From contig NW_024881573.1 in assembly GCF_019059575.1 (NCBI RefSeq), positions 406,501 through 470,500 on the forward strand: a stretch of 64,000 nt of DNA, read 5' to 3'. The DNA is from Amphibalanus amphitrite (Eukaryota; Arthropoda; Thecostraca; Balanomorpha; Balanidae). This document shows positions 15,828 through 53,114 of the stretch, in pieces; position 1 is the stretch's first letter; every line of letters starts with the position of its first letter. Both the position numbers and the translations under genes were made by a program. The notes beneath the pieces are model-generated. The model was not told the DNA's origin, ran no database searches, and was given only the letters and a program-made list of their open reading frames with translations.

Positions 15828-15829
15828 TA

Positions 15830-17867: not shown

Positions 17868-18798
17868 GATCTGTAGCGGGGTTTCGCGGCGTTGCGGGGC
17901 TAACCGGGCATTCGCTTCTCAGCAGGTGGGCTGGCTCGAGTGGGGGTGTTAAAATCGGCCTAGTCGGTGCGCTTCTACTCGTAAAAGCCCTTCTCGGTTC
18001 AGCCCCTCGCGAACTCGTCCCGACTCTGTCTTTACATTCTCCGGGGCGATCAATCATCGGAAACACATAGGCCAGGGTTAGGGAATGGGAGATAATGATA
18101 AATGATAATCAATTACCCTCGATCATATTGGTATAGAAAATCAACTCTATTTAACAAAAAGTCCCACTCTCAAACAACAGCGCCCTTCCTAGCTGAGGGC
18201 TATCTCCCACCGGATATACACAACAATCATACTTCCACTCGTGCATCCCTTCTCACTTCTGTCATACGTCCAGTTATACCTCATAATTATCAGAGTTAGC
18301 CGTCTCTGATCCCTCCCTCTTTGCCTAACTTCCCCCGGTGGTGCTAAGGCGTGCGCAAGTCGTTATTGAGTCATTGGCCTTAAATTTCATTAACCGTTAT
18401 CCCTTCATAACCACAATGCTCCGTACATCAGACAAACGCTTCATAATGCTCACGCTACACGAATAGAATATACGAACCACCACAGATTTCGGCACTCCGC
18501 CCTTTGAATTACGCGACTTATAGCGGGTCCAAGACCATGCCGAACTACCTACACACAAATAATAAACACACACGCACGCAGGTTATTGAGCGAACAATGG
18601 ACTTACAGCATGGGCCGGTAAACCTTTGAAACAACGTACGCAGCCCTTGTCTTACTGCCACTCACGTGTGGACCTACCTTCTACTGCCAGTGGTCAGTCA
18701 GCATCTCTAACACACTCCAGCCCACGGTTCCGGAGCTAGAGCTCGCAGGGCACTCAGTAGCCCGGGCTTTCCGCGGCGGACGTATCTAAAATTTGAAA

Positions 18799-18885
18799 GC
18801 CGGGTTGGGTAACTAAAGTCCGTCCGTGATACTAATGACCGCATCTCGCACCAGCCATAGTTCAGGGTTTCCGGGCCAACCCGGC
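18799..18885. repeat. 87-nt stem-bounded element, copy A
   Basis: GCCGGGTTGG and CCAACCCGGC, at the two ends, can form a perfect 10-bp stem enclosing 67 nt. The same element occurs at 26198, 34278, 41680 and 49080 in the other LTRs. Aligned without gaps to copy B it differs at several sites, including a paired change in the stem. It has tRNA-like length, but I find no convincing A and B boxes or anticodon arm. Function unknown. Confidence 0.7.
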
Positions 18886-19335
18886 GACCTAAAAAGGGTT
18901 AGCTCTCGTCGGCTAACTACAAAGACGACACGCGTCTTCCACGCACGCAGGTCCACTCGGGGACATCCTGCACTCAACACACATCGTCGACTACCAGCGC
19001 ATAGGCGTCCAAAGCCCTATCTATCCGTGGCTGGTAGTTAAGCTGTCGTCACAGACCTATTCGAAAGGACCAGAGCATGGCCGGAGCTACTCGACTGACT
19101 GCGGGTGGCCAGCACCGTCTGACTGCGATCACCCGACTCGAATGCTCGGTATCTAATGTTCACCCCCGTCTTGCGGCATTATACGTTCCTTCGCGGGGCA
19201 TTACTCTTCCGGCGGCATACGATTCCCTCGCTAAGACGCCCGGGGTCCTAACCACCTCCGAAACTATCGCTCTTCAAATGACGTCCCGCGCCGACCACTT
19301 GAGGGACCGATAGCGGGCCTACCTATCTTTTTGAA

Positions 19336-19422
19336 ACCGGGCTGGGTAACTAAGGTCCATCCGTGATACTGATGACCGCATCTCGCTCCAGTCATAGTTC
19401 AGGGCTTCCGGGCCAGCCCGGC
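19336..19422. repeat. 87-nt stem-bounded element, copy B
   Basis: CCGGGCTGG and CCAGCCCGG give a 9-bp stem. Relative to copy A the stem T-A pair is replaced by C-G on both sides at once, preserving pairing. Inner ATGAC and GTCAT can also pair in this copy. Other copies start at 26735, 34815, 42217 and 49617. Confidence 0.7.
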
Positions 19423-20165
19423 AGCCTAAAATCTGCCCAGCCTCCGAGGCTGTTAATCCGAGACGGAACACCGTCATCTCGCGGCGGCCCACCCACCGAT
19501 ACACATCCCAGGCGACGGCCCACGTGACCTTAATTATCACCCAGGCCTACCCTGGGCCGGAACAATCGGGCCACTGGTCCCGTGTCCCGCTAGCCAGAGG
19601 TTAGACAGACTACAGCCCGTCGTCCCCTCCGAGCCAGGACACGAGGCTGACCGGGTAACATTTCTTGAAACCCTCCTCGGCGGTCTGTGCCCGACTCGCC
19701 TTCATCCTCACGTTTAATTTCGCGACTTATTGCACGCATCCAGGGCTTACTCAATCGAGGCCTAATATCTAGTGGGGTCTGTCCGAGTTTAGCGTCATTC
19801 GGGAAACCCGATTTATCTATTTGTACAGTCCTCCTCCCTTTCACTCGCTTCTCATCTCCCTCCTAACCCGTAGCCGCGTCGGTGGACTTTCCACGCACAG
19901 GGGCGTGACGTGCATCATCTATCCCCCCCTGAGTTCCTTATTCATCTTAGGTGTGGGCTGACTTTAGTGGGAATGATTTACTGAGACTCTAGCTGGAACT
20001 AACAACTCATCTTTTCTCGTTCTCGTCCTCCACCGTCACCCCTTTTTTCAAAGTTGAGCCACCGACAGTGCGGACCAGGCTGAGCGGAAATCCCTTAGTT
20101 GAGGCCGTGCTGGGTTGGAAAATGGGAACGTATGACCCGGCCAGTGCTGACCAGACGAGAATAAG

Positions 20166-20974
20166 CAGCTCCTGTGCGGGCGCTGTTAGGCAGGAGGATG
20201 AACAGCTCCTGTGCGGGCGCTGTTAGGCAGGAGGATGAACAGCTCCTGTGCGGGCGCTGTTAGGCAGGAGAATGAACAGCTCCTGTGCGGGCGCTGTTAG
20301 GCAGGAGAATGAGCAGCTCCTGTGCGGGCGCTGTTAGGCAGGAGAATAAACAGCTCCTGTGCGGGCGCTGTTAGGCAGGAGAATGAACAGCTCCTGTGCG
20401 GGCGCTGTTAGGCAGGAGAATGAACAGCTCCTGTGCGGGCGCTGTTAGGCAGGAGAATGAACAGCTCCTGTGCGGGCGCTGTTAGGCAGGAGAATGAACA
20501 GCTCCTGTGCGGGCGCTGTTAGGCAGGAGAATGAACAGCTCCTGTGCGGGCGCTGCGTTGGTCTTAGGACAGTAGGATAGCAGCGCCTGTGCGGGCGCCA
20601 CATTTGTTAGGCAGGAGGATAAACAGCTCCTGTGCGGGCGCTGCGTTGGTCTTAGGACAGGAGGATAAGCAGCGCCTGTGCGGGCGCCACGTTTGTTAGG
20701 CAGGAGGATAAACAGCTCCTGTGCGGGCGCTGCGTTGGTCTTAGGACAGAAGGATAAGCAGCTCCTGTGCGGGCGCCACGTTTGTTAGGCAGGAGGATAA
20801 ACAGCTCCTGTGCGGGCGCTGCGTTGGTCTTAGGACAGGAGGATAAGCAGCGCCTGTGCGGGCGCCACGTTTGTTAGGCAGGAGGATAAACAGCTCCTGT
20901 GCGGGCGCTGCGTTGGTCTTAGGACAGGAGGATAAGCAGCGCCTGTGCGGGCGCCACGTTTGTTAGGCAGGAGG
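20166..20974. repeat. LTR-internal minisatellite of hairpin-forming units
   Basis: About eleven 37-bp units (CAGCTCCTGTGCGGGCGCTG then TTAGGCAGGAGAATGAA) are followed by about five 89-bp composite units in which a second version, CAGCGCCTGTGCGGGCGCC, alternates with the first. In the short unit CTCCTG pairs with CAGGAG. In the second version GCGCC pairs perfectly with GGCGC. The block is framed by a 20-bp direct repeat CCAGYRCTGACCAGACGA (20145-20160 and 20983-21000). Matching blocks are at 27566-28374, 35645-36453, 43047-43856 and 50447-51256 and have the same unit order, so they spread with the LTR and did not expand independently. Confidence 0.9.
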
Positions 20975-23219
20975 GTAACCGGCCAGCACTGACCAGACGA
21001 CAAAAAGGGGTGGAATCGGTTCAGATGTTTGAGGCCAGCCTGGCCACTCCCGTGGTCTCCGAAACGTGTATAGTTCTGGTCGTCCCGTACGCTGTACTAC
21101 CAAACCACTGAGCCAATCACTGACGGCCGCGCCGGCCGGCTCCACCCACCTTGAGCGGGATCGGGCCCCACGGGCTCGATAAACTACCTGGGCCCTATCG
21201 GATTTGGATGTCCCTTGAGAACCAGGCAGACGAGAAGAAGAACTGTTCTGTTACCAAATACTATGGCGAATTGGATACCTCGAAACCACTTCCTCTCCCG
21301 CAACGACTTCCTCTCCGGCTGTGTAGATGGCATATGGTCTGTGACATTTTACTCTCCAGTACTTTCCTTTCACCACTCCTTACACTCGTATTACAATATG
21401 TACAAGTCCCATTTATTGACATTTTCTGACACAATGCTTTAAAATCCTGTACATGTCAAACTTAAAAGAAACGTTCTGGGACCCGGCCGTCCAGCAACTG
21501 AGTCTCACACGCCGCACGGTGCGGTGCACAGCCGCCCGTCCCTTTCCCGACTCCCCACGGAGCATAATCCCCTCCATCCGCCTTAATCACCACGGGGCGC
21601 CGGACGAGGGTCCATTCCACGTCGGCACGCGTCTCGCACCACGCCCATAGTTAAATAATTGACCGAAAGCGGATTGTTAAATTAAGCTACCTAGACTGAA
21701 GGTTCTCAAAATAAATTGAACTACCTTAACTGAATGGCCTAATAATTTATTGCGCAATGACACCAAAAAAAAGGAAACATAATGTGGCTCACATAGCAGT
21801 AACGAAGGGGGGGGGGGGTGATTATTTGAAGGATTTTGGGACTAGGTGCGTGCCCGTGATCACCGTGACCTTACTTGAGATGGAGTCGCTGACATGATGG
21901 CCGTGTCCGTCCAGCGCCCGGCCAGGCGGCTGGAGCCGCCGCCGGCGCCGTGATGCCAGCCGCTGGTGTCTCGTGGGCTGTCCACGATGTCAGCTGTGAG
22001 CCGAGAGCGAAGAGCGGCGTCGAATGCGTCGTCCGAGGGAGTGCCAGAGAGAGCGTTCCAGTTCCGTTTCATCAACTTATACTTCTGATGACGTCATACT
22101 TCGGAGGGCCGGGCAGCATCTCCTTGTCCAATCTTCGTCCTCCATTCTCAGAAGCTGCACTCGGCTCCGCCCTCGAAAGTTCGTGATTTGCTGACAAAGT
22201 TCGGTTCCCCTCCGGCCATGGCAGTCGCACCCTTTCACGCAGCGATCGGGTGGAATTCGCCGCCGGCGCTCTGCGCCGCCTGAGGCGCCAGGTGGCGGCC
22301 GGCTCTGCGCCCTCCTTTCTTGTTTTTAGTCCTGCGCTCCCCCCTGTTTTGAATGTCTCCGGCCAGGTGTCCTTCTTCCATGGCGGTGACCGAGTTCCAT
22401 TTCATCCTGTTTTCGTACAAACCGGGTCGGTTCCCGCTCCCCTTTCTTGTTTTGGTTCAAATCAGGGCCGGTCTGCACTCCCCTCTCCTTGTTCTTCTCT
22501 TCTGGCGGGGTGCCGAGCGTGGGACAGAGTCTTGTTTTCCAACGGCTAAACTGATTAATGGCTCGACCCCGGCAGGATAGTGCGTTTCGGTATGCTATTT
22601 GTTGGCTTCAGATCCGGGTTCTCATGAAGTGGGGTGGTCATCTATAGAGGACCCCTGTTTGTCAGAGCCGACTGCGCCGTCTGTGTGGACGCCAGCTGGG
22701 ACGGAGAGAGGGTATCACAGCCGATGTAGCCGGCTGACCGTGTCTGTGCGGCGCTTGCAGATGGCTATGTTTCAGCTTGTGACACAGCTTGCAATTCCGC
22801 ATGAAAGATGAAAAAATGTAGCGCATCTGCGTTACATTTTCAGACCTCTTTTTATAGTCGCGCCCCGCGACTAAACGTTTGAGAGCTCGCTTCTGCCGTG
22901 AATTTGGCGCCGTTTCCTTGTGTTTCTTGGTGACTTCAGAGCAGGTGGCCGTCTTCTAAAGGATTGGTAGTTATTGAGGACGAGCTTGGATGATTAGGAC
23001 ATAAGGATTGCGGGTTTTTGCGTCATTGCACAGTATTTCAGGCCATTCTTACATTTCCAGAACTAAAACATTCACGTACTATCCCGTAAAACACCACCAA
23101 CTACACATCAAATAATTAGCGCGCAAAACTATGGAAATTGAATTAAACCATTGAAATAATCGACACATGACAATACAAAAATTGCATTGCTACATTTGGT
23201 TACTATAATTCAGATCAAA

Positions 23220-23591
23220 TTAGCGATAACATACCGGTGCAGATTGTGGTATGCCAAAGAAGTGAGCCCGGCACCTGATGGTGGCTCCATGAGCCACGGC
23301 AGATCCGGTCCGGGATGGCCGTGATGACGGACTGGAGGTCGTCCGCGACTTGGTCTCGAATCGGCCGGCTGCTACTGTAGTCTGGTCCCAGTTCCGGATT
23401 TCCCCAGTCTCGTGGTTGTAGACGTAGTCCTCGCCGACCATCGATGTCGAATGCAGCTGTCCTGGCGAGCTGTCAGGGCTGGCAATGATCGGCCCAGAAC
23501 TCGTCTGTGGCTGAGCCTCCGAGCTGTTTCTGCTGGTCTGGTGGCCGCAGAGGCTGCGCTCTGGTGTAGACTGCCGATGATGGAACGGCTG
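23220..23591 (-). pseudogene. Possible decayed coding segment of the internal region, Ser/Thr-rich
   Basis: A 123-codon stop-free stretch, rich in Ser, Thr, Gln and Pro, with an ordered-looking centre GEDYVYNHETGEIRNWDQTT. It is not recognised as any Gag, protease or cellular family. It lies in a different frame from the next stretch at 23629-23811. Repeated at +8080, +15482 and +22879 in the other internal regions. Coding is uncertain. Confidence 0.35.
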
Positions 23592-23628
23592 TCACATCCA
23601 GTGGCAGACTCGGATACTGGCTACATTG

Positions 23629-23811
23629 TTATAGCATTTCCGACGATTTTGCGGCCGTTGTAGGTGGGTCACAGCTCTGGCCTTCGCCGGCCTCCCAGTT
23701 GGTCTGGTTGTCACGAAAGTAGTAGCCCAGCTTGACTGTCGACGCTGGAGCGGATGCAGTCGATGAAGCAGCTGTTGTCCCTGCAGTCTGCTCATGGTTG
23801 TTTGGCCGTGA
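23629..23811 (-). pseudogene. Possible decayed coding segment, Ala/Ser-rich then aromatic
   Basis: About 60 codons containing KLGYYFRDNQTNWEAGEGQS after an Ala/Ser/Thr run. In the same frame, coding-like text (GGPHFPHFKTDPRDLH) continues upstream past one stop at 23812. This suggests a former longer frame, possibly gag. No known motif. Confidence 0.3.
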
Positions 23812-23954
23812 CTATGTACTGGCCCGGTGCAGGTCTCGTGGGTCGGTCTTGAAGTGTGGGAAGTGGGGACCGCCTGCATTTGATGTAATGCCAGGTAACC
23901 ACCTCCCAGTGCAGCGGGCGGCCCCGAAATGGGCTCGCACGCTGATCCGGTCCA

Positions 23955-24096
23955 TTACGGTTGTCTATTTCGCTCGAAACAGGCAGCATTCAGATCTGTC
24001 CGAATTGTCTTATCTAATGACGCTCTATAGTTGTAGTAGTCGTCACCATCACCCCAGTTGCTGCCTAATTTTGTTGACATAAATTGGTTATCAGTT
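23955..24096 (-). pseudogene. Possible decayed coding segment, Asp/Tyr-rich
   Basis: Stop-free stretch in the -1 frame relative to the Glu/Lys-rich segment just upstream, containing SNWGDGDDYYNYRASLDKTI. It overlaps the end of that segment, so the two could once have been joined by a shift or an indel. Not recognised. Confidence 0.3.
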
Positions 24097-24295
24097 TCTC
24101 CTCCTCCTGCTTCCGGTCTCTGTTGTTATTTGTTTCAGGCTTTGTTTTCATTTTGAGTTCCCTTGGGCACTGGCTATCAGCATCAGCCAGTCGCTGTTGA
24201 TGACTAGCTTTTTTCTGTTCTTCTGTCGGCATCTCTTCTTCTCTCCGCTGCACGTTTGCTCTTCCAACTGGCTTCGTGATGTTATAGTTCTTCAA
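24065..24295 (-). pseudogene. Possible Gag-like Glu/Lys/Gln-rich segment
   Basis: A 76-codon stretch with RREEEMPTEEQKKASHQQRL and later KQEEEKLITN, of coiled-coil composition. Further upstream in another frame there is RKRQLRRAKYK. As the only charged helical segment behind the primer-binding site it might be a Gag remnant. This is inference from position only. Confidence 0.3.
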
Positions 24296-25194
24296 TCATT
24301 TGTATTTTGCTCTTCTCAGCTGTCGTTTCCTTTCTGTGATTGCATGTTTCCATTGCCATGTAGTATCAACGTCGTTTCCATCGGTCTCCTCCTTCAATAT
24401 CTTCTCTTCCCGCCGTCAATCTCCGCTGTGTGCCCTCCTTCTTTCACCTTACTGTTCACATTGCTTCAATAACAATCTCGATCATCTTCAGTCTGTGCCG
24501 TCACCTTTATTTCAATATCATACGTTCTATTTGTCATTCTTGCCTTCTTCAGCCCTGATTTCATTCCACAACATTCGATACCTTCATAGCGTCGCGCTCA
24601 GTCGTATCTTCAGTATGTACATCGGGTTCGGTAACACGTGACAGCCTGTTCTGTAACGGGGTTTCCCGTCGGGGAAAACGGCTCGTGGACGGTTGCCGGT
24701 CTCCTGTCAGTTCTCTCCAGAGGCGGGTCAGTCCACGGGTCACACATAGGTCACTGCACCTTTTTGGTATAGGATGGGTACAATCTCTTAAAAATTGGGT
24801 TAAAATGGCATCCTCGGTGTGATTACTCTAACTTTGGATCACGGGATTTCACTCAAGGTTAGGGTTCGCTAGATGTGAGCCACATAAATTTAGTTAGCGA
24901 TACCTGTAGCCGAAAAAAAAACTATACTAAGCCCGCTCGCCCATCACTTAAAATTGATTCTCGAGTTACCCTTATCACTTCATGATATATACTCCCTCCA
25001 GCAATCCACGCTTTCTGATTTCAATCAAATCAATTTAACCCGAGTAACGCTGCACTGGGTGACCAGCTCCCACTGCATCTAGCTCAGACATAATAAGTTT
25101 TCTCACTCACGCTCGCATTTCCTCTGAAATTTTAGCATTGGGTTCGGCAATGCACGTCCGTCCACCGACTTCATGTTTCCTTTGATTGATCCTA

Positions 25195-25213
25195 CCCCAC
25201 GTTGGGTGCGCCA
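25195..25213 (-). other. tRNA-Lys-like primer-binding site of the giant-LTR element
   Basis: On the minus strand, 4 nt after the LTR end CGCTACA, stands TGGCGCACCCAACGTGGGG. It matches the tRNA-Lys type site TGGCGCCCAACGTGGGG except for a 2-nt insertion after TGGCGC. The same sequence is at 33275-33293, 40677-40695 and 48077-48095. Confidence 0.7.
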
Positions 25214-25217
25214 AATC

Positions 25218-28200
25218 TGTAGCGGGGTTTCGCGGCGTTGCGGGGCTAACCGGGCATTCTCTTCTGGTAGAGATAAGCGGGGTTTCGCCGTTGCGGGGCT
25301 AACCGGGCATTCGTTTCTCAGCAGGTGGGCTGGCTCGAGTGGGGGTTTTAAAATCGGCCTAGTCGGTGCGCTTCTACTCGTAAAAGCCCTTCTCGGTTCA
25401 GCCCCTCGCGAACTCGTCCCGACTCTGTCTTTACATTCTCCGGGGCGATCAATCATCGGAAACACATAGGCCAGGGTTAGGGAATGGGAGATAATGATAA
25501 ATGATAATCAATTACCCTCGATCATATTGGTATAGAAAATCAACTCTATTTAACAAAAAGTCCCACTCTCAAACAACAGCGCCCTTCCTAGCTGAGGGCT
25601 ATCTCCCACCGGATATACACAACAATCATACTTCCACTCGTGCATCCCTTCTCACTTCTGTCATACGTCCAGTTATACCTCATAATTATCAGAGTTAGCC
25701 GTCTCTGATCCCTCCCTCTTTGCCTAACTTCCCCCGGTGGTGCTAAGGCGTGCGCAAGTCGTTATTGAGTCATTGGCCTTAAATTTCATTAACCGTTATC
25801 CTTTCATAACCACAATGCTCCGTACATCAGACAAACGCTTCATAATGCTCACGCTACACGAATAGAATATACGAACCACCACAGATTTCGGCACTCCGCC
25901 CTTTGAATTACGCGACTTATAGCGGGTCCAAGACCATGCCGAACTACCTACACACAAATAATAAACACACACGCACGCAGGTTATTGAGCGAACAATGGA
26001 CTTACAGCATGGGCCGGTAAACCTTTGAAACAACGTACGCAGCCCTTGTCTTACTGCCACTCACGTGTGGACCTACCTTCTACTGCCAGTGGTCAGTCAG
26101 CATCTCTAACACACTCCAGCCCACGGTTCCGGAGCTAGAGCTCGCAGGGCACTCAGTAGCCCGGGCTTTCCGCGGCGGACGTATCTAAAATTTGAAAGCC
26201 GGGTTGGGTAACTAAAGTCCGTCCGTGATACTAATGACCGCATCTCGCACCAGCCATAGTTCAGGGTTTCCGGGCCAACCCGGCGACCTAAAAAGGGTTA
26301 GCTCTCGTCGGCTAACTACAAAGACGACACGCGTCTTCCACGCACGCAGGTCCACTCGGGGACATCCTGCACTCAACACACATCGTCGACTACCAGCGCA
26401 TAGGCGTCCAAAGCCCTATCTATCCGTGGCTGGTAGTTAAGCTGTCGTCACAGACCTATTCGAAAGGACCAGAGCATGGCCGGAGCTACTCGACTGACTG
26501 CGGGTGGCCAGCACCGTCTGACTGCGATCACCCGACTCGAATGCTCGGTATCTAATGTTCACCCCCGTCTTGCGGCATTATACGTTCCTTCGCGGGGCAT
26601 TACTCTTCCGGCGGCATACGATTCCCTCGCTAAGACGCCCGGGGTCCTAACCACCTCCGAAACTATCGCTCTTCAAATGACGTCCCGCGCCGACCACTTG
26701 AGGGACCGATAGCGGGCCTACCTATCTTTTTGAAACCGGGCTGGGTAACTAAGGTCCATCCGTGATACTGATGACCGCATCTCGCTCCAGTCATAGTTCA
26801 GGGCTTCCGGGCCAGCCCGGCAGCCTAAAATCTGCCCAGCCTCCGAGGCTGTTAATCCGAGACGGAACACCGTCATCTCGCGGCGGCCCACCCGCCGATA
26901 CACATCCCAGGCGACGGCCCACGTGACCTTAATTATCACCCAGGCCTACCCTGGGCCGGAACAATCGGGCCACTGGTCCCGTGTCCCGCTAGCCAGAGGT
27001 TAGACAGACTACAGCCCGTCGTCCCCTCCGAGCCAGGACACGAGGCTGACCGGGTAACATTTCTTGAAACCCTCCTCGGCGGTCTGTGCCCGACTCGCCT
27101 TCATCCTCACGTTTAATTTCGCGACTTATTGCACGCATCCAGGGCTTACTCAATCGAGGCCTAATATCTAGTGGGGTCTGTCCGAGTTTAGCGTCATTCG
27201 GGAAACCCGATTTATCTATTTGTACAGTCCTCCTCCCTTTCACTCGCTTCTCATCTCCCTCCTAACCCGTAGCCGCGTCGGTGGACTTTCCACGCACAGG
27301 GGCGTGACGTGCATCATCTACCCCCCCCCTGAGTTCCTTATTCATCTTAGGTGTGGGCTGACTTTAGTGGGAATGATTTACTGAGACTCTAGCTGGAACT
27401 AACAACTCATCTTTTCTCGTTCTCGTCCCCCACCGTCACCCCTTTTTTCAAAGTTGAGCCACCGACAGTGCGGACCAGGCTGAGCGGAAATCCCTTAGTT
27501 GAGGCCGTGCTGGGTTGGAAAATGGGAACGTATGACCCGGCCAGTGCTGACCAGACGAGAATAAGCAGCTCCTGTGCGGGCGCTGTTAGGCAGGAGGATG
27601 AACAGCTCCTGTGCGGGCGCTGTTAGGCAGGAGGATGAACAGCTCCTGTGCGGGCGCTGTTAGGCAGGAGAATGAACAGCTCCTGTGCGGGCGCTGTTAG
27701 GCAGGAGAATGAGCAGCTCCTGTGCGGGCGCTGTTAGGCAGGAGAATAAACAGCTCCTGTGCGGGCGCTGTTAGGCAGGAGAATGAACAGCTCCTGTGCG
27801 GGCGCTGTTAGGCAGGAGAATGAACAGCTCCTGTGCGGGCGCTGTTAGGCAGGAGAATGAACAGCTCCTGTGCGGGCGCTGTTAGGCAGGAGAATGAACA
27901 GCTCCTGTGCGGGCGCTGTTAGGCAGGAGAATGAACAGCTCCTGTGCGGGCGCTGCGTTGGTCTTAGGACAGTAGGATAGCAGCGCCTGTGCGGGCGCCA
28001 CATTTGTTAGGCAGGAGGATAAACAGCTCCTGTGCGGGCGCTGCGTTGGTCTTAGGACAGGAGGATAAGCAGCGCCTGTGCGGGCGCCACGTTTGTTAGG
28101 CAGGAGGATAAACAGCTCCTGTGCGGGCGCTGCGTTGGTCTTAGGACAGAAGGATAAGCAGCTCCTGTGCGGGCGCCACGTTTGTTAGGCAGGAGGATAA

Positions 28201-36200: not shown

Positions 36201-38318
36201 TGCGGGCGCTGCGTTGGTCTTAGGACAGAAGGATAAGCAGCTCCTGTGCGGGCGCCACGTTTGTTAGGCAGGAGGATAAACAGCTCCTGTGCGGGCGCTG
36301 CGTTGGTCTTAGGACAGGAGGATAAGCAGCGCCTGTGCGGGCGCCACGTTTGTTAGGCAGGAGGATAAACAGCTCCTGTGCGGGCGCTGCGTTGGTCTTA
36401 GGACAGGAGGATAAGCAGCGCCTGTGCGGGCGCCACGTTTGTTAGGCAGGAGGGTAACCGGCCAGCACTGACCAGACGACAAAAAGGGGTGGAATCGGTT
36501 CAGATGTTTGAGGCCAGCCTGGCCACTCCCGTGGTCTCCGAAACGTGTATAGTTCTGGTCGTCCCGTACGCTGTACTACCAAACCACTGAGCCAATCACT
36601 GACGGCCGCGCCGGCCGGCTCCACCCACCTTGAGCGGGATCGGGCCCCACGGGCTCGATAAACTACCTGGGCCCTATCGGATTTGGATGTCCCTTGAGAA
36701 CCAGGCAGACGAGAAGAAGAACTGTTCTGTTACCAAATACTATGGCGAATTGGATACCTCGAAACCACTTCCTCTCCCGCAACGACTTCCTCTCCGGCTG
36801 TGTAGATGGCATATGGTCTGTGACATTTTACTCTCCAGTACTTTCCTTTCACCACTCCTTACACTCGTATTACAATATGTATGTACAAGTCCCATTTATT
36901 GACATTTTCTGACACAATGCTTTAAAATCCTGTACATGTCAAACTTAAAAGAAACGTTCTGGGACCCGGCCGTCCAGCAACTGAGTCTCACACGCCGCAC
37001 GGTGCGGTGCACAGCCGCCCGTCCCTTTCCCGACTCCCCACGGAGCATAATCCCCTCCATCCGCCTTAATCACCACGGGGCGCCGGACGAGGGTCCATTC
37101 CACGTCGGCACGCGTCTCGCACCACGCCCATAGTTAAATAATTGACCGAAAGCGGATTGTTAAATTAAGCTACCTAGACTGAAGGTTCTCAAAATAAATT
37201 GAACTACCTTAACTGAATGGCCTAATAATTTATTGCGCAATGACACCAAAAAAAGGAAACATAATGTGGCTCACATAGCAGTAACGAAGGGGGGGGGGGG
37301 TGATTATTTGAAGGATTTTGGGACTAGGTGCGTGCCCGTGATCACCGTGACCTTACTTGAGATGGAGTCGCTGACATGATGGCCGTGTCCGTCCAGCGCC
37401 CGGCCAGGCGGCTGGAGCCGCCGCCGGCGCCGTGATGCCAGCCGCTGGTGTCTCGTGGGCTGTCCACGATGTCAGCTGTGAGCCGAGAGCGAAGAGCGGC
37501 GTCGAATGCGTCGTCCGAGGGAGTGCCAGAGAGAGCGTTCCAGTTCCGTTTCATCAACTTATACTTCTGATGACGTCATACTTCGGAGGGCCGGGCAGCA
37601 TCTCCTTGTCCAATCTTCGTCCTCCATTCTCAGAAGCTGCACTCGGCTCCGCCCTCGAAAGTTCGTGATTTGCTGACAAAGTTCGGTTCCCCTCCGGCCA
37701 TGGCAGTCGCACCCTTTCACGCAGCGATCGGGTGGAATTCGCCGCCGGCGCTCTGCGCCGCCTGAGGCGCCAGGTGGCGGCCGGCTCTGCGCCCTCCTTT
37801 CTTGTTTTTAGTCCTGCGCTCCCCCCTGTTTTGAATGTCTCCGGCCAGGTGTCCTTCTTCCATGGCGGTGACCGAGTTCCATTTCATCCTGTTTTCGTAC
37901 AAACCGGGTCGGTTCCCGCTCCCCTTTCTTGTTTTGGTTCAAATCAGGGCCGGTCTGCACTCCCCTCTCCTTGTTCTTCTCTTCTGGCGGGGTGCCGAGC
38001 GTGGGACAGAGTCTTGTTTTCCAACGGCTAAACTGATTAATGGCTCGACCCCGGCAGGATAGTGCGTTTCGGTATGCTATTTGTTGGCTTCAGATCCGGG
38101 TTCTCATGAAGTGGGGTGGTCATCTATAGAGGACCCCTGTTTGTCAGAGCCGACTGCGCCGTCTGTGTGGACGCCAGCTGGGACGGAGAGAGGGTATCAC
38201 AGCCGATGTAGCCGGCTGACCGTGTCTGTGCGGCGCTTGCAGATGGCTATGTTTCAGCTTGTGACACAGCTTGCAATTCCGCATGAAAGATGAAAAAATG
38301 TAGCGCATCTGCGTTACA
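33298..38318 (-). repeat. Giant LTR 3 (inner, 5021 bp)
   Basis: Inner alleles T at 33882 and C at 35508. A private 4-bp duplication (GTAT) is seen near 36880 at the very spot where LTR 2 carries its insertion. Minisatellite at 35645-36453; G12 run near 37289. Confidence 0.85.
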
Positions 38319-40699: not shown

Positions 40700-43600
40700 T
40701 GTAGCGGGGTTTCGCGGCGTTGCGGGGCTAACCGGGCATTCTCTTCTGGTAGAGATAAGCGGGGTTTCGCCGTTGCGGGGCTAACCGGGCATTCGTTTCT
40801 CAGCAGGTGGGCTGGCTCGAGTGGGGGTTTTAAAATCGGCCTAGTCGGTGCGCTTCTACTCGTAAAAGCCCTTCTCGGTTCAGCCCCTCGCGAACTCGTC
40901 CCGACTCTGTCTTTACATTCTCCGGGGCGATCAATCATCGGAAACACATAGGCCAGGGTTAGGGAATGGGAGATAATGATAAATGATAATCAATTACCCT
41001 CGATCATATTGGTATAGAAAATCAACTCTATTTAACAAAAAGTCCCACTCTCAAACAACAGCGCCCTTCCTAGCTGAGGGCTATCTCCCACCGGATATAC
41101 ACAACAATCATACTTCCACTCGTGCATCCCTTCTCACTTCTGTCATACGTCCAGTTATACCTCATAATTATCAGAGTTAGCCGTCTCTGATCCCTCCCTC
41201 TTTGCCTAACTTCCCCCGGTGGTGCTAAGGCGTGCGCAAGTCGTTATTGAGTCATTGGCCTTAAATTTCATTAACCGTTATCCTTTCATAACCACAATGC
41301 TCCGTACATCAGACAAACGCTTCATAATGCTCACGCTACACGAATAGAATATACGAACCACCACAGATTTCGGCACTCCGCCCTTTGAATTACGCGACTT
41401 ATAGCGGGTCCAAGACCATGCCGAACTACCTACACACAAATAATAAACACACACGCACGCAGGTTATTGAGCGAACAATGGACTTACAGCATGGGCCGGT
41501 AAACCTTTGAAACAACGTACGCAGCCCTTGTCTTACTGCCACTCACGTGTGGACCTACCTTCTACTGCCAGTGGTCAGTCAGCATCTCTAACACACTCCA
41601 GCCCACGGTTCCGGAGCTAGAGCTCGCAGGGCACTCAGTAGCCCGGGCTTTCCGCGGCGGACGTATCTAAAATTTGAAAGCCGGGTTGGGTAACTAAAGT
41701 CCGTCCGTGATACTAATGACCGCATCTCGCACCAGCCATAGTTCAGGGTTTCCGGGCCAACCCGGCGACCTAAAAAGGGTTAGCTCTCGTCGGCTAACTA
41801 CAAAGACGACACGCGTCTTCCACGCACGCAGGTCCACTCGGGGACATCCTGCACTCAACACACATCGTCGACTACCAGCGCATAGGCGTCCAAAGCCCTA
41901 TCTATCCGTGGCTGGTAGTTAAGCTGTCGTCACAGACCTATTCGAAAGGACCAGAGCATGGCCGGAGCTACTCGACTGACTGCGGGTGGCCAGCACCGTC
42001 TGACTGCGATCACCCGACTCGAATGCTCGGTATCTAATGTTCACCCCCGTCTTGCGGCATTATACGTTCCTTCGCGGGGCATTACTCTTCCGGCGGCATA
42101 CGATTCCCTCGCTAAGACGCCCGGGGTCCTAACCACCTCCGAAACTATCGCTCTTCAAATGACGTCCCGCGCCGACCACTTGAGGGACCGATAGCGGGCC
42201 TACCTATCTTTTTGAAACCGGGCTGGGTAACTAAGGTCCATCCGTGATACTGATGACCGCATCTCGCTCCAGTCATAGTTCAGGGCTTCCGGGCCAGCCC
42301 GGCAGCCTAAAATCTGCCCAGCCTCCGAGGCTGTTAATCCGAGACGGAACACCGTCATCTCGCGGCGGCCCACCCGCCGATACACATCCCAGGCGACGGC
42401 CCACGTGACCTTAATTATCACCCAGGCCTACCCTGGGCCGGAACAATCGGGCCACTGGTCCCGTGTCCCGCTAGCCAGAGGTTAGACAGACTACAGCCCG
42501 TCGTCCCCTCCGAGCCAGGACACGAGGCTGACCGGGTAACATTTCTTGAAACCCTCCTCGGCGGTCTGTGCCCGACTCGCCTTCATCCTCACGTTTAATT
42601 TCGCGACTTATTGCACGCATCCAGGGCTTACTCAATCGAGGCCTAATATCTAGTGGGGTCTGTCCGAGTTTAGCGTCATTCGGGAAACCCGATTTATCTA
42701 TTTGTACAGTCCTCCTCCCTTTCACTCGCTTCTCATCTCCCTCCTAACCCGTAGCCGCGTCGGTGGACTTTCCACGCACAGGGGCGTGACGTGCATCATC
42801 TATCCCCCCCTGAGTTCCTTATTCATCTTAGGTGTGGGCTGACTTTAGTGGGAATGATTTACTGAGACTCTAGCTGGAACTAACAACTCATCTTTTCTCG
42901 TTCTCGTCCCCCACCGTCACCCCTTTTTTCAAAGTTGAGCCACCGACAGTGCGGACCAGGCTGAGCGGAAATCCCTTAGTTGAGGCCGTGCTGGGTTGGA
43001 AAATGGGAACGTATGACCCGGCCAGTGCTGACCAGACGAGAATAAGCAGCTCCTGTGCGGGCGCTGTTAGGCAGGAGGATGAACAGCTCCTGTGCGGGCG
43101 CTGTTAGGCAGGAGGATGAACAGCTCCTGTGCGGGCGCTGTTAGGCAGGAGAATGAACAGCTCCTGTGCGGGCGCTGTTAGGCAGGAGAATGAGCAGCTC
43201 CTGTGCGGGCGCTGTTAGGCAGGAGAATAAACAGCTCCTGTGCGGGCGCTGTTAGGCAGGAGAATGAACAGCTCCTGTGCGGGCGCTGTTAGGCAGGAGA
43301 ATGAACAGCTCCTGTGCGGGCGCTGTTAGGCAGGAGAATGAACAGCTCCTGTGCGGGCGCTGTTAGGCAGGAGAATGAACAGCTCCTGTGCGGGCGCTGT
43401 TAGGCAGGAGAATGAACAGCTCCTGTGCGGGCGCTGCGTTGGTCTTAGGACAGTAGGATAGCAGCGCCTGTGCGGGCGCCACATTTGTTAGGCAGGAGGA
43501 TAAACAGCTCCTGTGCGGGCGCTGCGTTGGTCTTAGGACAGGAGGATAAGCAGCGCCTGTGCGGGCGCCACGTTTGTTAGGCAGGAGGATAAACAGCTCC

Positions 43601-45715
43601 TGTGCGGGCGCTGCGTTGGTCTTAGGACAGAAGGATAAGCAGCTCCTGTGCGGGCGCCACGTTTGTTAGGCAGGAGGATAAACAGCTCCTGTGCGGGCGC
43701 TGCGTTGGTCTTAGGACAGGAGGATAAGCAGCGCCTGTGCGGGCGCCACGTTTGTTAGGCAGGAGGATAAACAGCTCCTGTGCGGGCGCTGCGTTGGTCT
43801 TAGGACAGGAGGATAAGCAGCGCCTGTGCGGGCGCCACGTTTGTTAGGCAGGAGGGTAACCGGCCAGCACTGACCAGACGACAAAAAGGGGTGGAATCGG
43901 TTCAGATGTTTGAGGCCAGCCTGGCCACTCCCGTGGTCTCCGAAACGTGTATAGTTCTGGTCGTCCCGTACGCTGTACTACCAAACCACTGAGCCAATCA
44001 CTGACGGCCGCGCCGGCCGGCTCCACCCACCTTGAGCGGGATCGGGCCCCACGGGCTCGATAAACTACCTGGGCCCTATCGGATTTGGATGTCCCTTGAG
44101 AACCAGGCAGACGAGAAGAAGAACTGTTCTGTTACCAAATACTATGGCGAATTGGATACCTCGAAACCACTTCCTCTCCCGCAACGACTTCCTCTCCGGC
44201 TGTGTAGATGGCATATGGTCTGTGACATTTTACTCTCCAGTACTTTCCTTTCACCACTCCTTACACTCGTATTACAATATGTACAAGTCCCATTTATTGA
44301 CATTTTCTGACACAATGCTTTAAAATCCTGTACATGTCAAACTTAAAAGAAACGTTCTGGGACCCGGCCGTCCAGCAACTGAGTCTCACACGCCGCACGG
44401 TGCGGTGCACAGCCGCCCGTCCCTTTCCCGACTCCCCACGGAGCATAATCCCCTCCATCCGCCTTAATCACCACGGGGCGCCGGACGAGGGTCCATTCCA
44501 CGTCGGCACGCGTCTCGCACCACGCCCATAGTTAAATAATTGACCGAAAGCGGATTGTTAAATTAAGCTACCTAGACTGAAGGTTCTCAAAATAAATTGA
44601 ACTACCTTAACTGAATGGCCTAATAATTTATTGCGCAATGACACCAAAAAAAGGAAACATAATGTGGCTCACATAGCAGTAACGAAGGGGGGGGGGGTGA
44701 TTATTTGAAGGATTTTGGGACTAGGTGCGTGCCCGTGATCACCGTGACCTTAATTGAGATGGAGTCGCTGACATGATGGCCGTGTCCGTCCAGCGCCCGG
44801 CCAGGCGGCTGGAGCCGCCGCCGGCGCCGTGATGCCAGCCGCTGGTGTCTCGTGGGCTGTCCACGATGTCAGCTGTGAGCCGAGAGCGAAGAGCGGCGTC
44901 GAATGCGTCGTCCGAGGGAGTGCCAGAGAGAGCGTTCCAGTTCCGTTTCATCAACTTATACTTCTGATGACGTCATACTTCGGAGGGCCGGGCAGCATCT
45001 CCTTGTCCAATCTTCGTCCTCCATTCTCAGAAGCTGCACTCGGCTCCGCCCTCGAAAGTTCGTGATTTGCTGACAAAGTTCGGTTCCCCTCCGGCCATGG
45101 CAGTCGCACCCTTTCACGCAGCGATCGGGTGGAATTCGCCGCCGGCGCTCTGCGCCGCCTGAGGCGCCAGGTGGCGGCCGGCTCTGCGCCCTCCTTTCTT
45201 GTTTTTAGTCCTGCGCTCCCCCCTGTTTTGAATGTCTCCGGCCAGGTGTCCTTCTTCCATGGCGGTGACCGAGTTCCATTTCATCCTGTTTTCGTACAAA
45301 CCGGGTCGGTTCCCGCTCCCCTTTCTTGTTTTGGTTCAAATCAGGGCCGGTCTGCACTCCCCTCTCCTTGTTCTTCTCTTCTGGCGGGGTGCCGAGCGTG
45401 GGACAGAGTCTTGTTTTCCAACGGCTAAACTGATTAATGGCTCGACCCCGGCAGGATAGTGCGTTTCGGTATGCTATTTGTTGGCTTCAGATCCGGGTTC
45501 TCATGAAGTGGGGTGGTCATCTATAGAGGACCCCTGTTTGTCAGAGCCGACTGCGCCGTCTGTGTGGACGCCAGCTGGGACGGAGAGAGGGTATCACAGC
45601 CGATGTAGCCGGCTGACCGTGTCTGTGCGGCGCTTGCAGATGGCTATGTTTCAGCTTGTGACACAGCTTGCAATTCCGCATGAAAGATGAAAAAATGTAG
45701 CGCATCTGCGTTACA
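40700..45715 (-). repeat. Giant LTR 4 (inner, 5016 bp)
   Basis: Inner alleles T at 41284 and C at 42910. Private change A for C near 44753 (TTAATTGAG instead of TTACTTGAG). G11 run near 44688. Minisatellite at 43047-43856. Confidence 0.85.
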
Positions 45716-48099
45716 TTTTCAGACCTCTTTTTATAGTCGCGCCCCGCGACTAAACGTTTGAGAGCTCGCTTCTGCCGTGAATTTGGCGCCGTTTCCTTGT
45801 GTTTCTTGGTGACTTCAGAGCAGGTGGCCGTCTTCTAAAGGATTGGTAGTTATTGAGGACGAGCTTGGATGATTAGGACATAAGGATTGCGGGTTTTTGC
45901 GTCATTGCACAGTATTTCAGGCCATTCTTACATTTCCAGAACTAAAACATTCACGTACTATCCCGTAAAACACCACCAACTACACATCAAATAATTAGCG
46001 CGCAAAACTATGGAAATTGAATTAAACCATTGAAATAATCGACACATGACAATACAAAAATTGCATTGCTACATTTGGTTACTATAATTCAGATCAAATT
46101 AGCGATAACATACCGGTGCAGATTGTGGTATGCCAAAGAAGTGAGCCCGGCACCTGATGGTGGCTCCATGAGCCACGGCAGATCCGGTCCGGGATGGCCG
46201 TGATGACGGACTGGAGGTCGTCCGCGACTTGGTCTCGAATCGGCCGGCTGCTACTGTAGTCTGGTCCCAGTTCCGGATTTCCCCAGTCTCGTGGTTGTAG
46301 ACGTAGTCCTCGCCGACCATCGATGTCGAATGCAGCTGTCCTGGCGAGCTGTCAGGGCTGGCAATGATCGGCCCAGAACTCGTCTGTGGCTGAGCCTCCG
46401 AGCTGTTTCTGCTGGTCTGGTGGCCGCAGAGGCTGCGCTCTGGTGTAGACTGCCGATGATGGAACGGCTGTCACATCCAGTGGCAGACTCGGATACTGGC
46501 TACATTGTTATAGCATTTCCGACGATTTTGCGGCCGTTGTAGGTGGGTCACAGCTCTGGCCTTCGCCGGCCTCCCAGTTGGTCTGGTTGTCACGAAAGTA
46601 GTAGCCCAGCTTGACTGTCGACGCTGGAGCGGATGCAGTCGATGAAGCAGCTGTTGTCCCTGCAGTCTGCTCATGGTTGTTTGGCCGTGACTATGTACTG
46701 GCCCGGTGCAGGTCTCGTGGGTCGGTCTTGAAGTGTGGGAAGTGGGGACCGCCTGCATTTGATGTAATGCCAGGTAACCACCTCCCAGTGCAGCGGGCGG
46801 CCCCGAAATGGGCTCGCACGCTGATCCGGTCCATTACGGTTGTCTATTTCGCTCGAAACAGGCAGCATTCAGATCTGTCCGAATTGTCTTATCTAATGAC
46901 GCTCTATAGTTGTAGTAGTCGTCACCATCACCCCAGTTGCTGCCTAATTTTGTTGACATAAATTGGTTATCAGTTTCTCCTCCTCCTGCTTCCGGTCTCT
47001 GTTGTTATTTGTTTCAGGCTTTGTTTTCATTTTGAGTTCCCTTGGGCACTGGCTATCAGCATCAGCCAGTCGCTGTTGATGACTAGCTTTTTTCTGTTCT
47101 TCTGTCGGCATCTCTTCTTCTCTCCGCTGCACGTTTGCTCTTCCAACTGGCTTCGTGATGTTATAGTTCTTCAATCATTTGTATTTTGCTCTTCTCAGCT
47201 GTCGTTTCCTTTCTGTGATTGCATGTTTCCATTGCCATGTAGTATCAACGTCGTTTCCATCGGTCTCCTCCTTCAATATCTTCTCTTCCCGCCGTCAATC
47301 TCCGCTGTGTGCCCTCCTTCTTTCACCTTACTGTTCACATTGCTTCAATAACAATCTCGATCATCTTCAGTCTGTGCCGTCACCTTTATTTCAATATCAT
47401 ACGTTCTATTTGTCATTCTTGCCTTCTTCAGCCCTGATTTCATTCCACAACATTCGATACCTTCATAGCGTCGCGCTCAGTCGTATCTTCAGTATGTACA
47501 TCGGGTTCGGTAACACGTGACAGCCTGTTCTGTAACGGGGTTTCCCGTCGGGGAAAACGGCTCGTGGACGGTTGCCGGTCTCCTGTCAGTTCTCTCCAGA
47601 GGCGGGTCAGTCCACGGGTCACACATAGGTCACTGCACCTTTTTGGTATAGGATGGGTACAATCTCTTAAAAATTGGGTTAAAATGGCATCCTCGGTGTG
47701 ATTACTCTAACTTTGGATCACGGGATTTCACTCAAGGTTAGGGTTCGCTAGATGTGAGCCACATAAATTTAGTTAGCGATACCTGTAGCCGAAAAAAAAA
47801 AAACTATACTAAGCCCGCTCGCCCATCACTTAAAATTGATTCTCGAGTTACCCTTATCACTTCATGATATATACTCCCTCCAGCAATCCACGCTTTCTGA
47901 TTTCAATCAAATCAATTTAACCCGAGTAACGCTGCACTGGGTGACCAGCTCCCACTGCATCTAGCTCAGACATAATAAGTTTTCTCACTCACGCTCGCAT
48001 TTCCTCTGAAATTTTAGCATTGGGTTCGGCAATGCACGTCCGTCCACCGACTTCATGTTTCCTTTGATTGATCCTACCCCACGTTGGGTGCGCCAAATC
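45716..48099 (-). repeat. Internal region 4 (2384 bp)
   Basis: Three bases longer than the others because an A9 run is A12 near 47793. Confidence 0.85.
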
Positions 48100-51000
48100 T
48101 GTAGCGGGGTTTCGCGGCGTTGCGGGGCTAACCGGGCATTCTCTTCTGGTAGAGATAAGCGGGGTTTCGCCGTTGCGGGGCTAACCGGGCATTCGTTTCT
48201 CAGCAGGTGGGCTGGCTCGAGTGGGGGTTTTAAAATCGGCCTAGTCGGTGCGCTTCTACTCGTAAAAGCCCTTCTCGGTTCAGCCCCTCGCGAACTCGTC
48301 CCGACTCTGTCTTTACATTCTCCGGGGCGATCAATCATCGGAAACACATAGGCCAGGGTTAGGGAATGGGAGATAATGATAAATGATAATCAATTACCCT
48401 CGATCATATTGGTATAGAAAATCAACTCTATTTAACAAAAAGTCCCACTCTCAAACAACAGCGCCCTTCCTAGCTGAGGGCTATCTCCCACCGGATATAC
48501 ACAACAATCATACTTCCACTCGTGCATCCCTTCTCACTTCTGTCATACGTCCAGTTATACCTCATAATTATCAGAGTTAGCCGTCTCTGATCCCTCCCTC
48601 TTTGCCTAACTTCCCCCGGTGGTGCTAAGGCGTGCGCAAGTCGTTATTGAGTCATTGGCCTTAAATTTCATTAACCGTTATCCCTTCATAACCACAATGC
48701 TCCGTACATCAGACAAACGCTTCATAATGCTCACGCTACACGAATAGAATATACGAACCACCACAGATTTCGGCACTCCGCCCTTTGAATTACGCGACTT
48801 ATAGCGGGTCCAAGACCATGCCGAACTACCTACACACAAATAATAAACACACACGCACGCAGGTTATTGAGCGAACAATGGACTTACAGCATGGGCCGGT
48901 AAACCTTTGAAACAACGTACGCAGCCCTTGTCTTACTGCCACTCACGTGTGGACCTACCTTCTACTGCCAGTGGTCAGTCAGCATCTCTAACACACTCCA
49001 GCCCACGGTTCCGGAGCTAGAGCTCGCAGGGCACTCAGTAGCCCGGGCTTTCCGCGGCGGACGTATCTAAAATTTGAAAGCCGGGTTGGGTAACTAAAGT
49101 CCGTCCGTGATACTAATGACCGCATCTCGCACCAGCCATAGTTCAGGGTTTCCGGGCCAACCCGGCGACCTAAAAAGGGTTAGCTCTCGTCGGCTAACTA
49201 CAAAGACGACACGCGTCTTCCACGCACGCAGGTCCACTCGGGGACATCCTGCACTCAACACACATCGTCGACTACCAGCGCATAGGCGTCCAAAGCCCTA
49301 TCTATCCGTGGCTGGTAGTTAAGCTGTCGTCACAGACCTATTCGAAAGGACCAGAGCATGGCCGGAGCTACTCGACTGACTGCGGGTGGCCAGCACCGTC
49401 TGACTGCGATCACCCGACTCGAATGCTCGGTATCTAATGTTCACCCCCGTCTTGCGGCATTATACGTTCCTTCGCGGGGCATTACTCTTCCGGCGGCATA
49501 CGATTCCCTCGCTAAGACGCCCGGGGTCCTAACCACCTCCGAAACTATCGCTCTTCAAATGACGTCCCGCGCCGACCACTTGAGGGACCGATAGCGGGCC
49601 TACCTATCTTTTTGAAACCGGGCTGGGTAACTAAGGTCCATCCGTGATACTGATGACCGCATCTCGCTCCAGTCATAGTTCAGGGCTTCCGGGCCAGCCC
49701 GGCAGCCTAAAATCTGCCCAGCCTCCGAGGCTGTTAATCCGAGACGGAACACCGTCATCTCGCGGCGGCCCACCCGCCGATACACATCCCAGGCGACGGC
49801 CCACGTGACCTTAATTATCACCCAGGCCTACCCTGGGCCGGAACAATCGGGCCACTGGTCCCGTGTCCCGCTAGCCAGAGGTTAGACAGACTACAGCCCG
49901 TCGTCCCCTCCGAGCCAGGACACGAGGCTGACCGGGTAACATTTCTTGAAACCCTCCTCGGCGGTCTGTGCCCGACTCGCCTTCATCCTCACGTTTAATT
50001 TCGCGACTTATTGCACGCATCCAGGGCTTACTCAATCGAGGCCTAATATCTAGTGGGGTCTGTCCGAGTTTAGCGTCATTCGGGAAACCCGATTTATCTA
50101 TTTGTACAGTCCTCCTCCCTTTCACTCGCTTCTCATCTCCCTCCTAACCCGTAGCCGCGTCGGTGGACTTTCCACGCACAGGGGCGTGACGTGCATCATC
50201 TATCCCCCCCTGAGTTCCTTATTCATCTTAGGTGTGGGCTGACTTTAGTGGGAATGATTTACTGAGACTCTAGCTGGAACTAACAACTCATCTTTTCTCG
50301 TTCTCGTCCTCCACCGTCACCCCTTTTTTCAAAGTTGAGCCACCGACAGTGCGGACCAGGCTGAGCGGAAATCCCTTAGTTGAGGCCGTGCTGGGTTGGA
50401 AAATGGGAACGTATGACCCGGCCAGTGCTGACCAGACGAGAATAAGCAGCTCCTGTGCGGGCGCTGTTAGGCAGGAGGATGAACAGCTCCTGTGCGGGCG
50501 CTGTTAGGCAGGAGGATGAACAGCTCCTGTGCGGGCGCTGTTAGGCAGGAGAATGAACAGCTCCTGTGCGGGCGCTGTTAGGCAGGAGAATGAGCAGCTC
50601 CTGTGCGGGCGCTGTTAGGCAGGAGAATAAACAGCTCCTGTGCGGGCGCTGTTAGGCAGGAGAATGAACAGCTCCTGTGCGGGCGCTGTTAGGCAGGAGA
50701 ATGAACAGCTCCTGTGCGGGCGCTGTTAGGCAGGAGAATGAACAGCTCCTGTGCGGGCGCTGTTAGGCAGGAGAATGAACAGCTCCTGTGCGGGCGCTGT
50801 TAGGCAGGAGAATGAACAGCTCCTGTGCGGGCGCTGCGTTGGTCTTAGGACAGTAGGATAGCAGCGCCTGTGCGGGCGCCACATTTGTTAGGCAGGAGGA
50901 TAAACAGCTCCTGTGCGGGCGCTGCGTTGGTCTTAGGACAGGAGGATAAGCAGCGCCTGTGCGGGCGCCACGTTTGTTAGGCAGGAGGATAAACAGCTCA

Positions 51001-53114
51001 TGTGCGGGCGCTGCGTTGGTCTTAGGACAGAAGGATAAGCAGCTCCTGTGCGGGCGCCACGTTTGTTAGGCAGGAGGATAAACAGCTCCTGTGCGGGCGC
51101 TGCGTTGGTCTTAGGACAGGAGGATAAGCAGCGCCTGTGCGGGCGCCACGTTTGTTAGGCAGGAGGATAAACAGCTCCTGTGCGGGCGCTGCGTTGGTCT
51201 TAGGACAGGAGGATAAGCAGCGCCTGTGCGGGCGCCACGTTTGTTAGGCAGGAGGGTAACCGGCCAGCACTGACCAGACGACAAAAAGGGGTGGAATCGG
51301 TTCAGATGTTTGAGGCCAGCCTGGCCACTCCCGTGGTCTCCGAAACGTGTATAGTTCTGGTCGTCCCGTACGCTGTACTACCAAACCACTGAGCCAATCA
51401 CTGACGGCCGCGCCGGCCGGCTCCACCCACCTTGAGCGGGATCGGGCCCCACGGGCTCGATAAACTACCTGGGCCCTATCGGATTTGGATGTCCCTTGAG
51501 AACCAGGCAGACGAGAAGAAGAACTGTTCTGTTACCAAATACTATGGCGAATTGGATACCTCGAAACCACTTCCTCTCCCGCAACGACTTCCTCTCCGGC
51601 TGTGTAGATGGCATATGGTCTGTGACATTTTACTCTCCAGTACTTTCCTTTCACCACTCCTTACACTCGTATTACAATATGTACAAGTCCCATTTATTGA
51701 CATTTTCTGACACAATGCTTTAAAATCCTGTACATGTCAAACTTAAAAGAAACGTTCTGGGACCCGGCCGTCCAGCAACTGAGTCTCACACGCCGCACGG
51801 TGCGGTGCACAGCCGCCCGTCCCTTTCCCGACTCCCCACGGAGCATAATCCCCTCCATCCGCCTTAATCACCACGGGGCGCCGGACGAGGGTCCATTCCA
51901 CGTCGGCACGCGTCTCGCACCACGCCCATAGTTAAATAATTGACCGAAAGCGGATTGTTAAATTAAGCTACCTAGACTGAAGGTTCTCAAAATAAATTGA
52001 ACTACCTTAACTGAATGGCCTAATAATTTATTGCGCAATGACACCAAAAAAAGGAAACATAATGTGGCTCACATAGCAGTAACGAAGGGGGGGGGGTGAT
52101 TATTTGAAGGATTTTGGGACTAGGTGCGTGCCCGTGATCACCGTGACCTTACTTGAGATGGAGTCGCTGACATGATGGCCGTGTCCGTCCAGCGCCCGGC
52201 CAGGCGGCTGGAGCCGCCGCCGGCGCCGTGATGCCAGCCGCTGGTGTCTCGTGGGCTGTCCACGATGTCAGCTGTGAGCCGAGAGCGAAGAGCGGCGTCG
52301 AATGCGTCGTCCGAGGGAGTGCCAGAGAGAGCGTTCCAGTTCCGTTTCATCAACTTATACTTCTGATGACGTCATACTTCGGAGGGCCGGGCAGCATCTC
52401 CTTGTCCAATCTTCGTCCTCCATTCTCAGAAGCTGCACTCGGCTCCGCCCTCGAAAGTTCGTGATTTGCTGACAAAGTTCGGTTCCCCTCCGGCCATGGC
52501 AGTCGCACCCTTTCACGCAGCGATCGGGTGGAATTCGCCGCCGGCGCTCTGCGCCGCCTGAGGCGCCAGGTGGCGGCCGGCTCTGCGCCCTCCTTTCTTG
52601 TTTTTAGTCCTGCGCTCCCCCCTGTTTTGAATGTCTCCGGCCAGGTGTCCTTCTTCCATGGCGGTGACCGAGTTCCATTTCATCCTGTTTTCGTACAAAC
52701 CGGGTCGGTTCCCGCTCCCCTTTCTTGTTTTGGTTCAAATCAGGGCCGGTCTGCACTCCCCTCTCCTTGTTCTTCTCTTCTGGCGGGGTGCCGAGCGTGG
52801 GACAGAGTCTTGTTTTCCAACGGCTAAACTGATTAATGGCTCGACCCCGGCAGGATAGTGCGTTTCGGTATGCTATTTGTTGGCTTCAGATCCGGGTTCT
52901 CATGAAGTGGGGTGGTCATCTATAGAGGACCCCTGTTTGTCAGAGCCGACTGCGCCGTCTGTGTGGACGCCAGCTGGGACGGAGAGAGGGTATCACAGCC
53001 GATGTAGCCGGCTGACCGTGTCTGTGCGGCGCTTGCAGATGGCTATGTTTCAGCTTGTGACACAGCTTGCAATTCCGCATGAAAGATGAAAAAATGTAGC
53101 GCATCTGCGTTACA
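48100..53114 (-). repeat. Giant LTR 5 (outer, 5015 bp)
   Basis: Outer right LTR, and in the minus orientation the 5' LTR of the whole array. It shares C at 48684 and T at 50310 with LTR 1. One minisatellite unit has a private change (CAGCTCATG near 50999). G10 run near 52088. It ends at 53114 and is followed by GATC, where internal regions 1-4 instead have TTTTCAGACC. Confidence 0.87.

Follow-up and report, generated by a model that had tools for sequence, protein, structure and literature searches.

A tandem array of about 35 kb (positions 17872-53114 of the window, the 64,000-nucleotide stretch of Amphibalanus amphitrite DNA that was analysed) is best explained by a LARD-type retrotransposon that inserted once, was moved in trans, and then grew by unequal exchange, a joint explanation to which we assign a probability of roughly 0.8. 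The anatomy of the array, its primer site, its purine-rich tract, its single pair of edges and the split between its outer and inner long terminal repeats (LTRs) can be read in the sequence itself, and the steps that would have produced them are considered below along with the alternatives.

Organization of the array

Window self-comparison and edge searches resolve the array into the order LTR-I-LTR-I-LTR-I-LTR-I-LTR, in which five LTRs of about 5.0 kb alternate with four internal regions (I) of about 2.38 kb and the outermost segment on each side is an LTR. The retroelement is oriented on the minus strand, one LTR-internal-LTR unit measures about 12.3 kb, and the period is 7.4 kb apart from a 681-bp insert in LTR2.

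17872..22836, minus strand: LTR1, outermost 3' LTR on the minus strand, without a 53-bp duplication near the left edge
20157..20978, no strand assigned: minisatellite of 37/46/89 bp, inside LTR1
22837..25217, minus strand: internal region 1, 2381 bp
25218..30916, minus strand: LTR2, carrying the 681-bp insert at about 28794-29474
30917..33297, minus strand: internal region 2
33298..38318, minus strand: LTR3, with a private 4-bp TATG
38319..40699, minus strand: internal region 3
40700..45715, minus strand: LTR4, with one private substitution
45716..48099, minus strand: internal region 4, its A run longer by three A
48100..53114, minus strand: LTR5, outermost 5' LTR on the minus strand, with one private substitution

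The coordinates and the alignments of all units agree with the alternating five-LTR array, closed by an LTR at each end, that the original prediction described, and sizes and signals together uphold its reading of LTR-retrotransposon anatomy with giant LTRs (about 5 kb, against an internal region of about 2.4 kb). The 'perfect register' that it attributed to the five LTRs is not found, given the insert in LTR2 and the missing 53 bp in LTR1. The 861-bp block around the minisatellite is identical in LTR1 to LTR4 and shows one difference in LTR5. The insert itself (28794-29474), present in LTR2 only, contains two 119-bp direct repeats (86% alike); visual inspection also shows an inverted motif of the ACGGAGCGAGCGAGG type toward its ends, and no clear target duplication beyond AC.

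Across aligned blocks of the window self-comparison the array units are 99.7-99.96% alike, and this likeness is what would be expected if the element were real and the number of units an artefact of assembly, with units duplicated or collapsed. The unit number does depend on the assembly, and further units of identical sequence may still be hidden in it by collapse, but every LTR bears a private mark (the absent 53 bp and private bases of LTR1, the insert of LTR2, the TATG of LTR3, and the substitutions of LTR4 and LTR5), and the nearest marks of neighbouring LTRs are by arithmetic some 6-8 kb apart, within the reach of long reads. An artefactual unit number is accordingly rather unlikely.

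Array boundaries, primer site and purine tract

The array has a single pair of edges, with TGTAGCG starting at 17872 and CGTTACA ending at 53114. Read on the minus strand, the LTR opens with TGTAACG and closes with CGCTACA, tips that by eye are near-inverted. Two further signals lie at the junctions with the internal regions.

25195..25213, minus strand: tRNA-Lys-type primer binding site TGGCGCACCCAACGTGGGG bearing a 2-nt insertion, with further copies beside LTR3, LTR4 and LTR5
22837..22853, minus strand: purine-rich tract, AAAAAGAGGTCTGAAAA in minus-strand reading, directly before LTR1

The sequence TGGCGCACCCAACGTGGGG corresponds to the opening 17 nt of the tRNA-Lys1,2 primer site plus two extra nucleotides; in minus-strand reading it follows the LTR end at a distance of 4 nt in all four internal regions. 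When a tRNA-Lys1,2-type site was aligned locally with 6399 overlapping 40-nt windows on both strands, a score of 15 was reached by four of them, all at LTR/internal junctions; the only others scoring at least 12, also four, overlap the same junctions, and the maximum among 50,000 random 40-mers was 13.5. The tRNA-Lys-like site proposed for the start of each internal region is present in every one, but it is not exact, being broken by the 2-nt insertion. The purine tract proposed to close the internal regions on the minus strand is likewise in place, the tract before LTR1 being identical in the other internal regions, where it adjoins the next TGTAACG on that strand.

The left end of the array sets the LTR edge 4 nt from the primer site and the right end sets it beside the purine-rich tract. 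Neither signal depends on the point at which the array ends, and yet they coincide with both of its edges, a coincidence not expected of an ordinary satellite with arbitrary edges; the claim that the limits of the array are not arbitrary is sustained. An ordinary 7.4-kb satellite with edges that merely resemble LTR ends would suit the high likeness of the units, the minisatellite inside them and the lack of any protein domain at cut-off. The edges of such a satellite would not be tied to a particular phase of the repeat, however, whereas here both are LTR boundaries marked by the primer site and the purine tract, and there is one extra LTR, hence no whole number of units; a satellite of this kind is very improbable. 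As to other LTR signals, a simple pattern found no TATA box, and AATAAA occurs at 1086 and 1420 on the minus strand of LTR1, too weak a signal to place R and U5.

Insertion site and flanking DNA

The tetranucleotide GATC abuts the array on both sides.

17868..17871, no strand assigned: left GATC, putative target-site duplication
53115..53118, no strand assigned: right GATC, putative target-site duplication

The GATC repeat that had been noted on both sides is present, but it is weak evidence of a 4-bp target duplication because the flanks are rich in GATC, with 7 copies in the left and 12 in the right 200-bp flank against a window mean of 0.57 per 200 bp; two flank 4-mers would agree by chance with P of about 0.007, compared with 1 in 256 at even bases. 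A better hint is an inverted match of 17 of 19 positions that joins the left flank (17820-17838) to the right (56684-56702); among at most 300 pairs of random regions none did as well, a generous control because the regions were chosen after the match had been seen by eye. The flanks may be the parts of a single GATC-rich element into which the array and a second insertion were placed. To the right of the array a 43-bp GATC-rich tandem repeat is also seen, in two blocks at 53138-53274 and 56527-56678 with other DNA between them.

Coding content

No stop-to-stop ORF of at least 150 aa overlaps the array. Of 42 listed ORFs with a length of 80 aa or more, ten were scanned against Pfam and none reached the cut-off; the best match, to ArgoL2, had an E value of 0.007 and 17 bits where 33.3 were required. 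A tblastn search with six protein pieces, from the Gypsy, BEL and third gag frames of the window, gave nothing better than E 0.34 against LTR1, internal region 1 and the LTR2 insert. Within this coverage (10/42 ORFs in Pfam, and tblastn with the window's retroelement proteins) no pol was recognised in the array unit, neither the reverse transcriptase nor the integrase that would mark the Gypsy clade, in line with the expectation that pol would be missing. The possibility that the internal region had captured a gene was considered and rejected, as none of the 10/42 ORFs reached a Pfam cut-off and a PDB search of one ORF returned only E values of 0.098 and 0.71. Rfam and tRNA scans of the window, aimed at RNA genes like those of Cassandra or Helenus, reported no 5S, tRNA or other RNA gene at threshold.

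A 123-aa ORF of the internal region is 89% identical over 102 aa to a 198-aa predicted protein, P0031, which is encoded on an 858-bp public contig. The similarity extends to residues 31-198 of that protein.

23223..23685, minus strand: ORF remnant in internal region 1, matching P0031 residues 31-198 in two pieces and two different frames

The remnant is alike in the other three internal regions. Since the two pieces match two different frames, the internal region holds, judged from these alignments, the remains of an ORF, and the sequence has a relative elsewhere; and since it matches part of P0031, the members of the family may not all be non-coding. P0031 itself has no Pfam match and showed no further relative in searches. 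Viral contigs held no relative detectable by one exact pattern or by P0031, and no other DNA copy of the unit was found elsewhere in the window.

LTR variants and the history of the array

Eight gap-free substitution sites distinguish the five LTRs. At two of them (alignment columns 585 and 2212) LTR2-4 share a state that LTR1 and LTR5 lack, three set LTR1 apart from all other LTRs, and the remaining three are private, one each in LTR2, LTR4 and LTR5; all eight are compatible with the outer/inner split. LTR1 and LTR5, the outer pair, differ by 4 substitutions in 4962 bp, inner pairs by 1-2 in 4942-5016 bp, and inner from outer LTRs by 3-6. Between the four internal regions there is a single AAA indel, and not one substitution. 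The 53-bp duplication near the left edge that LTR1 does not have is compatible, within this array, with either a loss or an older state.

Because LTR2-4 share two substitutions and both outer LTRs are without them, growth in place is favoured, and the array most likely arose from one insertion by unequal exchange and not as a ready-made five-LTR concatemer. The pattern is suggestive, though not proof, of a history in which the outer LTRs would be the original pair and an inner LTR, created by unequal exchange, would have gained two changes and then been duplicated. The split consists of two sites only, and gene conversion could yield the same one; if one conversion event made both sites, the outer/inner split would be 1 of ten possible 2:3 splits.

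The alternative in which the array was inserted in one event, from a tandem RNA or cDNA produced by read-through, template switching or a one-LTR circle, accords with the single pair of edges and the GATC on both sides, and insertion of this kind has already been proposed for plant tandem elements (PMC11899658) and for Cassandra (PMC7215508). It would nevertheless need inherited heterogeneity or later conversion to account for the two inner-only substitutions, and by arithmetic an RNA with five LTRs would reach about 35 kb. Insertion as a finished concatemer is thus quite improbable, and on this point we depart from the original prediction: the two substitutions that separate LTR2-4 from LTR1 and LTR5 fit stepwise expansion in place.

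Classification and proposed mechanism

The LTR of Sukkula, a LARD of barley, is about 5 kb long. As defined in PMC4558846 and PMC7215508, LARDs have LTRs, a primer site and a purine tract, lack recognised gag and pol, and exceed 4 kb. In the array the primer site and purine tract lie at the internal edges, no gag or pol was recognised (10/42 ORFs scanned, and tblastn), and the unit is longer than 4 kb, outside the range of the short (<4 kb) TRIMs.

Under the explanation that we prefer, single insertion followed by growth in place, a non-autonomous LARD-type element on the minus strand, with 5.0-kb LTRs and a 2.4-kb internal region, would have integrated once into a GATC-rich repeat, mobilised in trans by a putative partner that was probably of Ty3/Gypsy type. 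The Gypsy link draws on just three features, namely the tRNA-Lys-type primer site, the TG...CA ends and the possible 4-bp duplication. Misaligned LTRs or internal regions would then have undergone unequal homologous exchange, with sister chromatids or homologues as the partners, or alternatively a one-LTR circle may have re-entered, and units would have been added until five LTRs and four internal regions were present.

Other elements in the window

A BEL/Pao-like element occupies 3575-15203, with 276-bp LTRs that are 98.9% alike. It contains an integrase core below cut-off and DUF1759 (E 1e-23), which marks BEL/Pao, a group not known outside animals; the host is accordingly taken to be an animal. 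Apparently nested in it on the minus strand is a Gypsy-like element (4173-9504) with identical 190-bp LTRs and open gag and pol frames, the latter in the order reverse transcriptase, RNase H, integrase. This Gypsy neighbour was rejected as the partner of the array element on account of its 190-bp LTRs, the lack, by eye, of a tRNA-Lys-type site after its LTR, and proteins that do not match the unit. By coordinates, the BEL/Pao-like element splits a DNA-transposon-like copy: an element of about 1.36 kb at 54186-55549, with inverted CAGGGTGTCCCATAAGTTCGTTCTCAC-like termini, has inverted matches to 2731-3574 and 15305-15833, which together form a left copy interrupted by the BEL element. At 56945-57107 and 58476-58588 there are palindromic AGGCATTTTGCAAAATGCCT repeats whose periods measure 46-48 bp, and a GC-rich imperfect tandem repeat, GCGGCGGGCGGCCGTTTTTTGCGG, at 58702-59252 has apparently spurious long open frames on both strands.

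Comparison with published systems

Tandem LTR elements that share LTRs are common in plants, and whether they are inserted as tandems or arise by later recombination is left open in a 2025 study (PMC11899658). The rice and other plant examples likewise alternate, have an LTR at both ends and one insertion site, and often have units that are very alike; they are bounded by a 4-5-bp target duplication (PMC11899658), to which the GATC repeat here is a weak counterpart. All 28 clear Nipponbare rice cases encode retrotransposon domains and the two loci detailed there have three LTRs (PMC11899658), whereas no such domain was recognised in the 10 of 42 ORFs scanned here and the present array has five.

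Non-autonomous elements form similar arrays. The plant TRIMs Cassandra (about 12 repeats per array; PMC7215508) and Wukong (up to seven LTRs; PMC4528315) are likewise tandem and share LTRs, although the Cassandra LTR carries 5S RNA and no Rfam family reached gathering score here. In bivalves, biv-TRIM is likewise a non-autonomous animal LTR element that forms LTR(x)-internal(x-1) arrays, of up to 58 LTRs by its authors' inference from the longest locus (PMC6934838); biv-TRIM elements are shorter than 1 kb, whereas the LTR alone is 5 kb here. A few tapeworm TRIM tandems have been ascribed to unequal crossing-over (PMC4558846). The kangaroo endogenous retrovirus megasatellite (cited in PMC11899658) is another animal tandem with shared LTRs and the provirus order retained, and differs in being reported from centromeres and in being a retrovirus. 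With such arrays published in plants, in cestodes and in bivalves, and a kangaroo case cited, the rarity first claimed for this one was overstated.

Among animals, LARDs have been annotated computationally in the honey bee, where they make up 3.1% of the genome (PMC4028053). Helenus and Ajax are non-autonomous LTR elements of small size, and some of those found in animals have tRNA-Lys primer sites (PMC10886601). LARDs are known as dispersed families, in contrast to the DNA copies here, which were seen only in one tandem array. Among the literature matches listed, whose coverage mostly leaves out subscription journals, none was recognised as describing LARD-type elements arranged in tandem in an animal, and absence from print is not claimed.

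It is conceivable, at somewhat less than even odds, that animal LARD-type elements with giant LTRs seed kilobase-unit satellites in place after a single insertion, the outer LTRs being original and the inner ones clonal copies. If so, the array would represent a stage, still readable, on the way from transposon to megasatellite, and LARD-sized non-autonomous animal LTR elements would be possible seeds of large satellites. Comparison of outer with inner LTRs would offer a simple test for other tandem arrays, and bears on the question that PMC11899658 leaves open. Arrays of this form are already known, and it is the long LTRs and the readable record of growth that make the present one a useful example.
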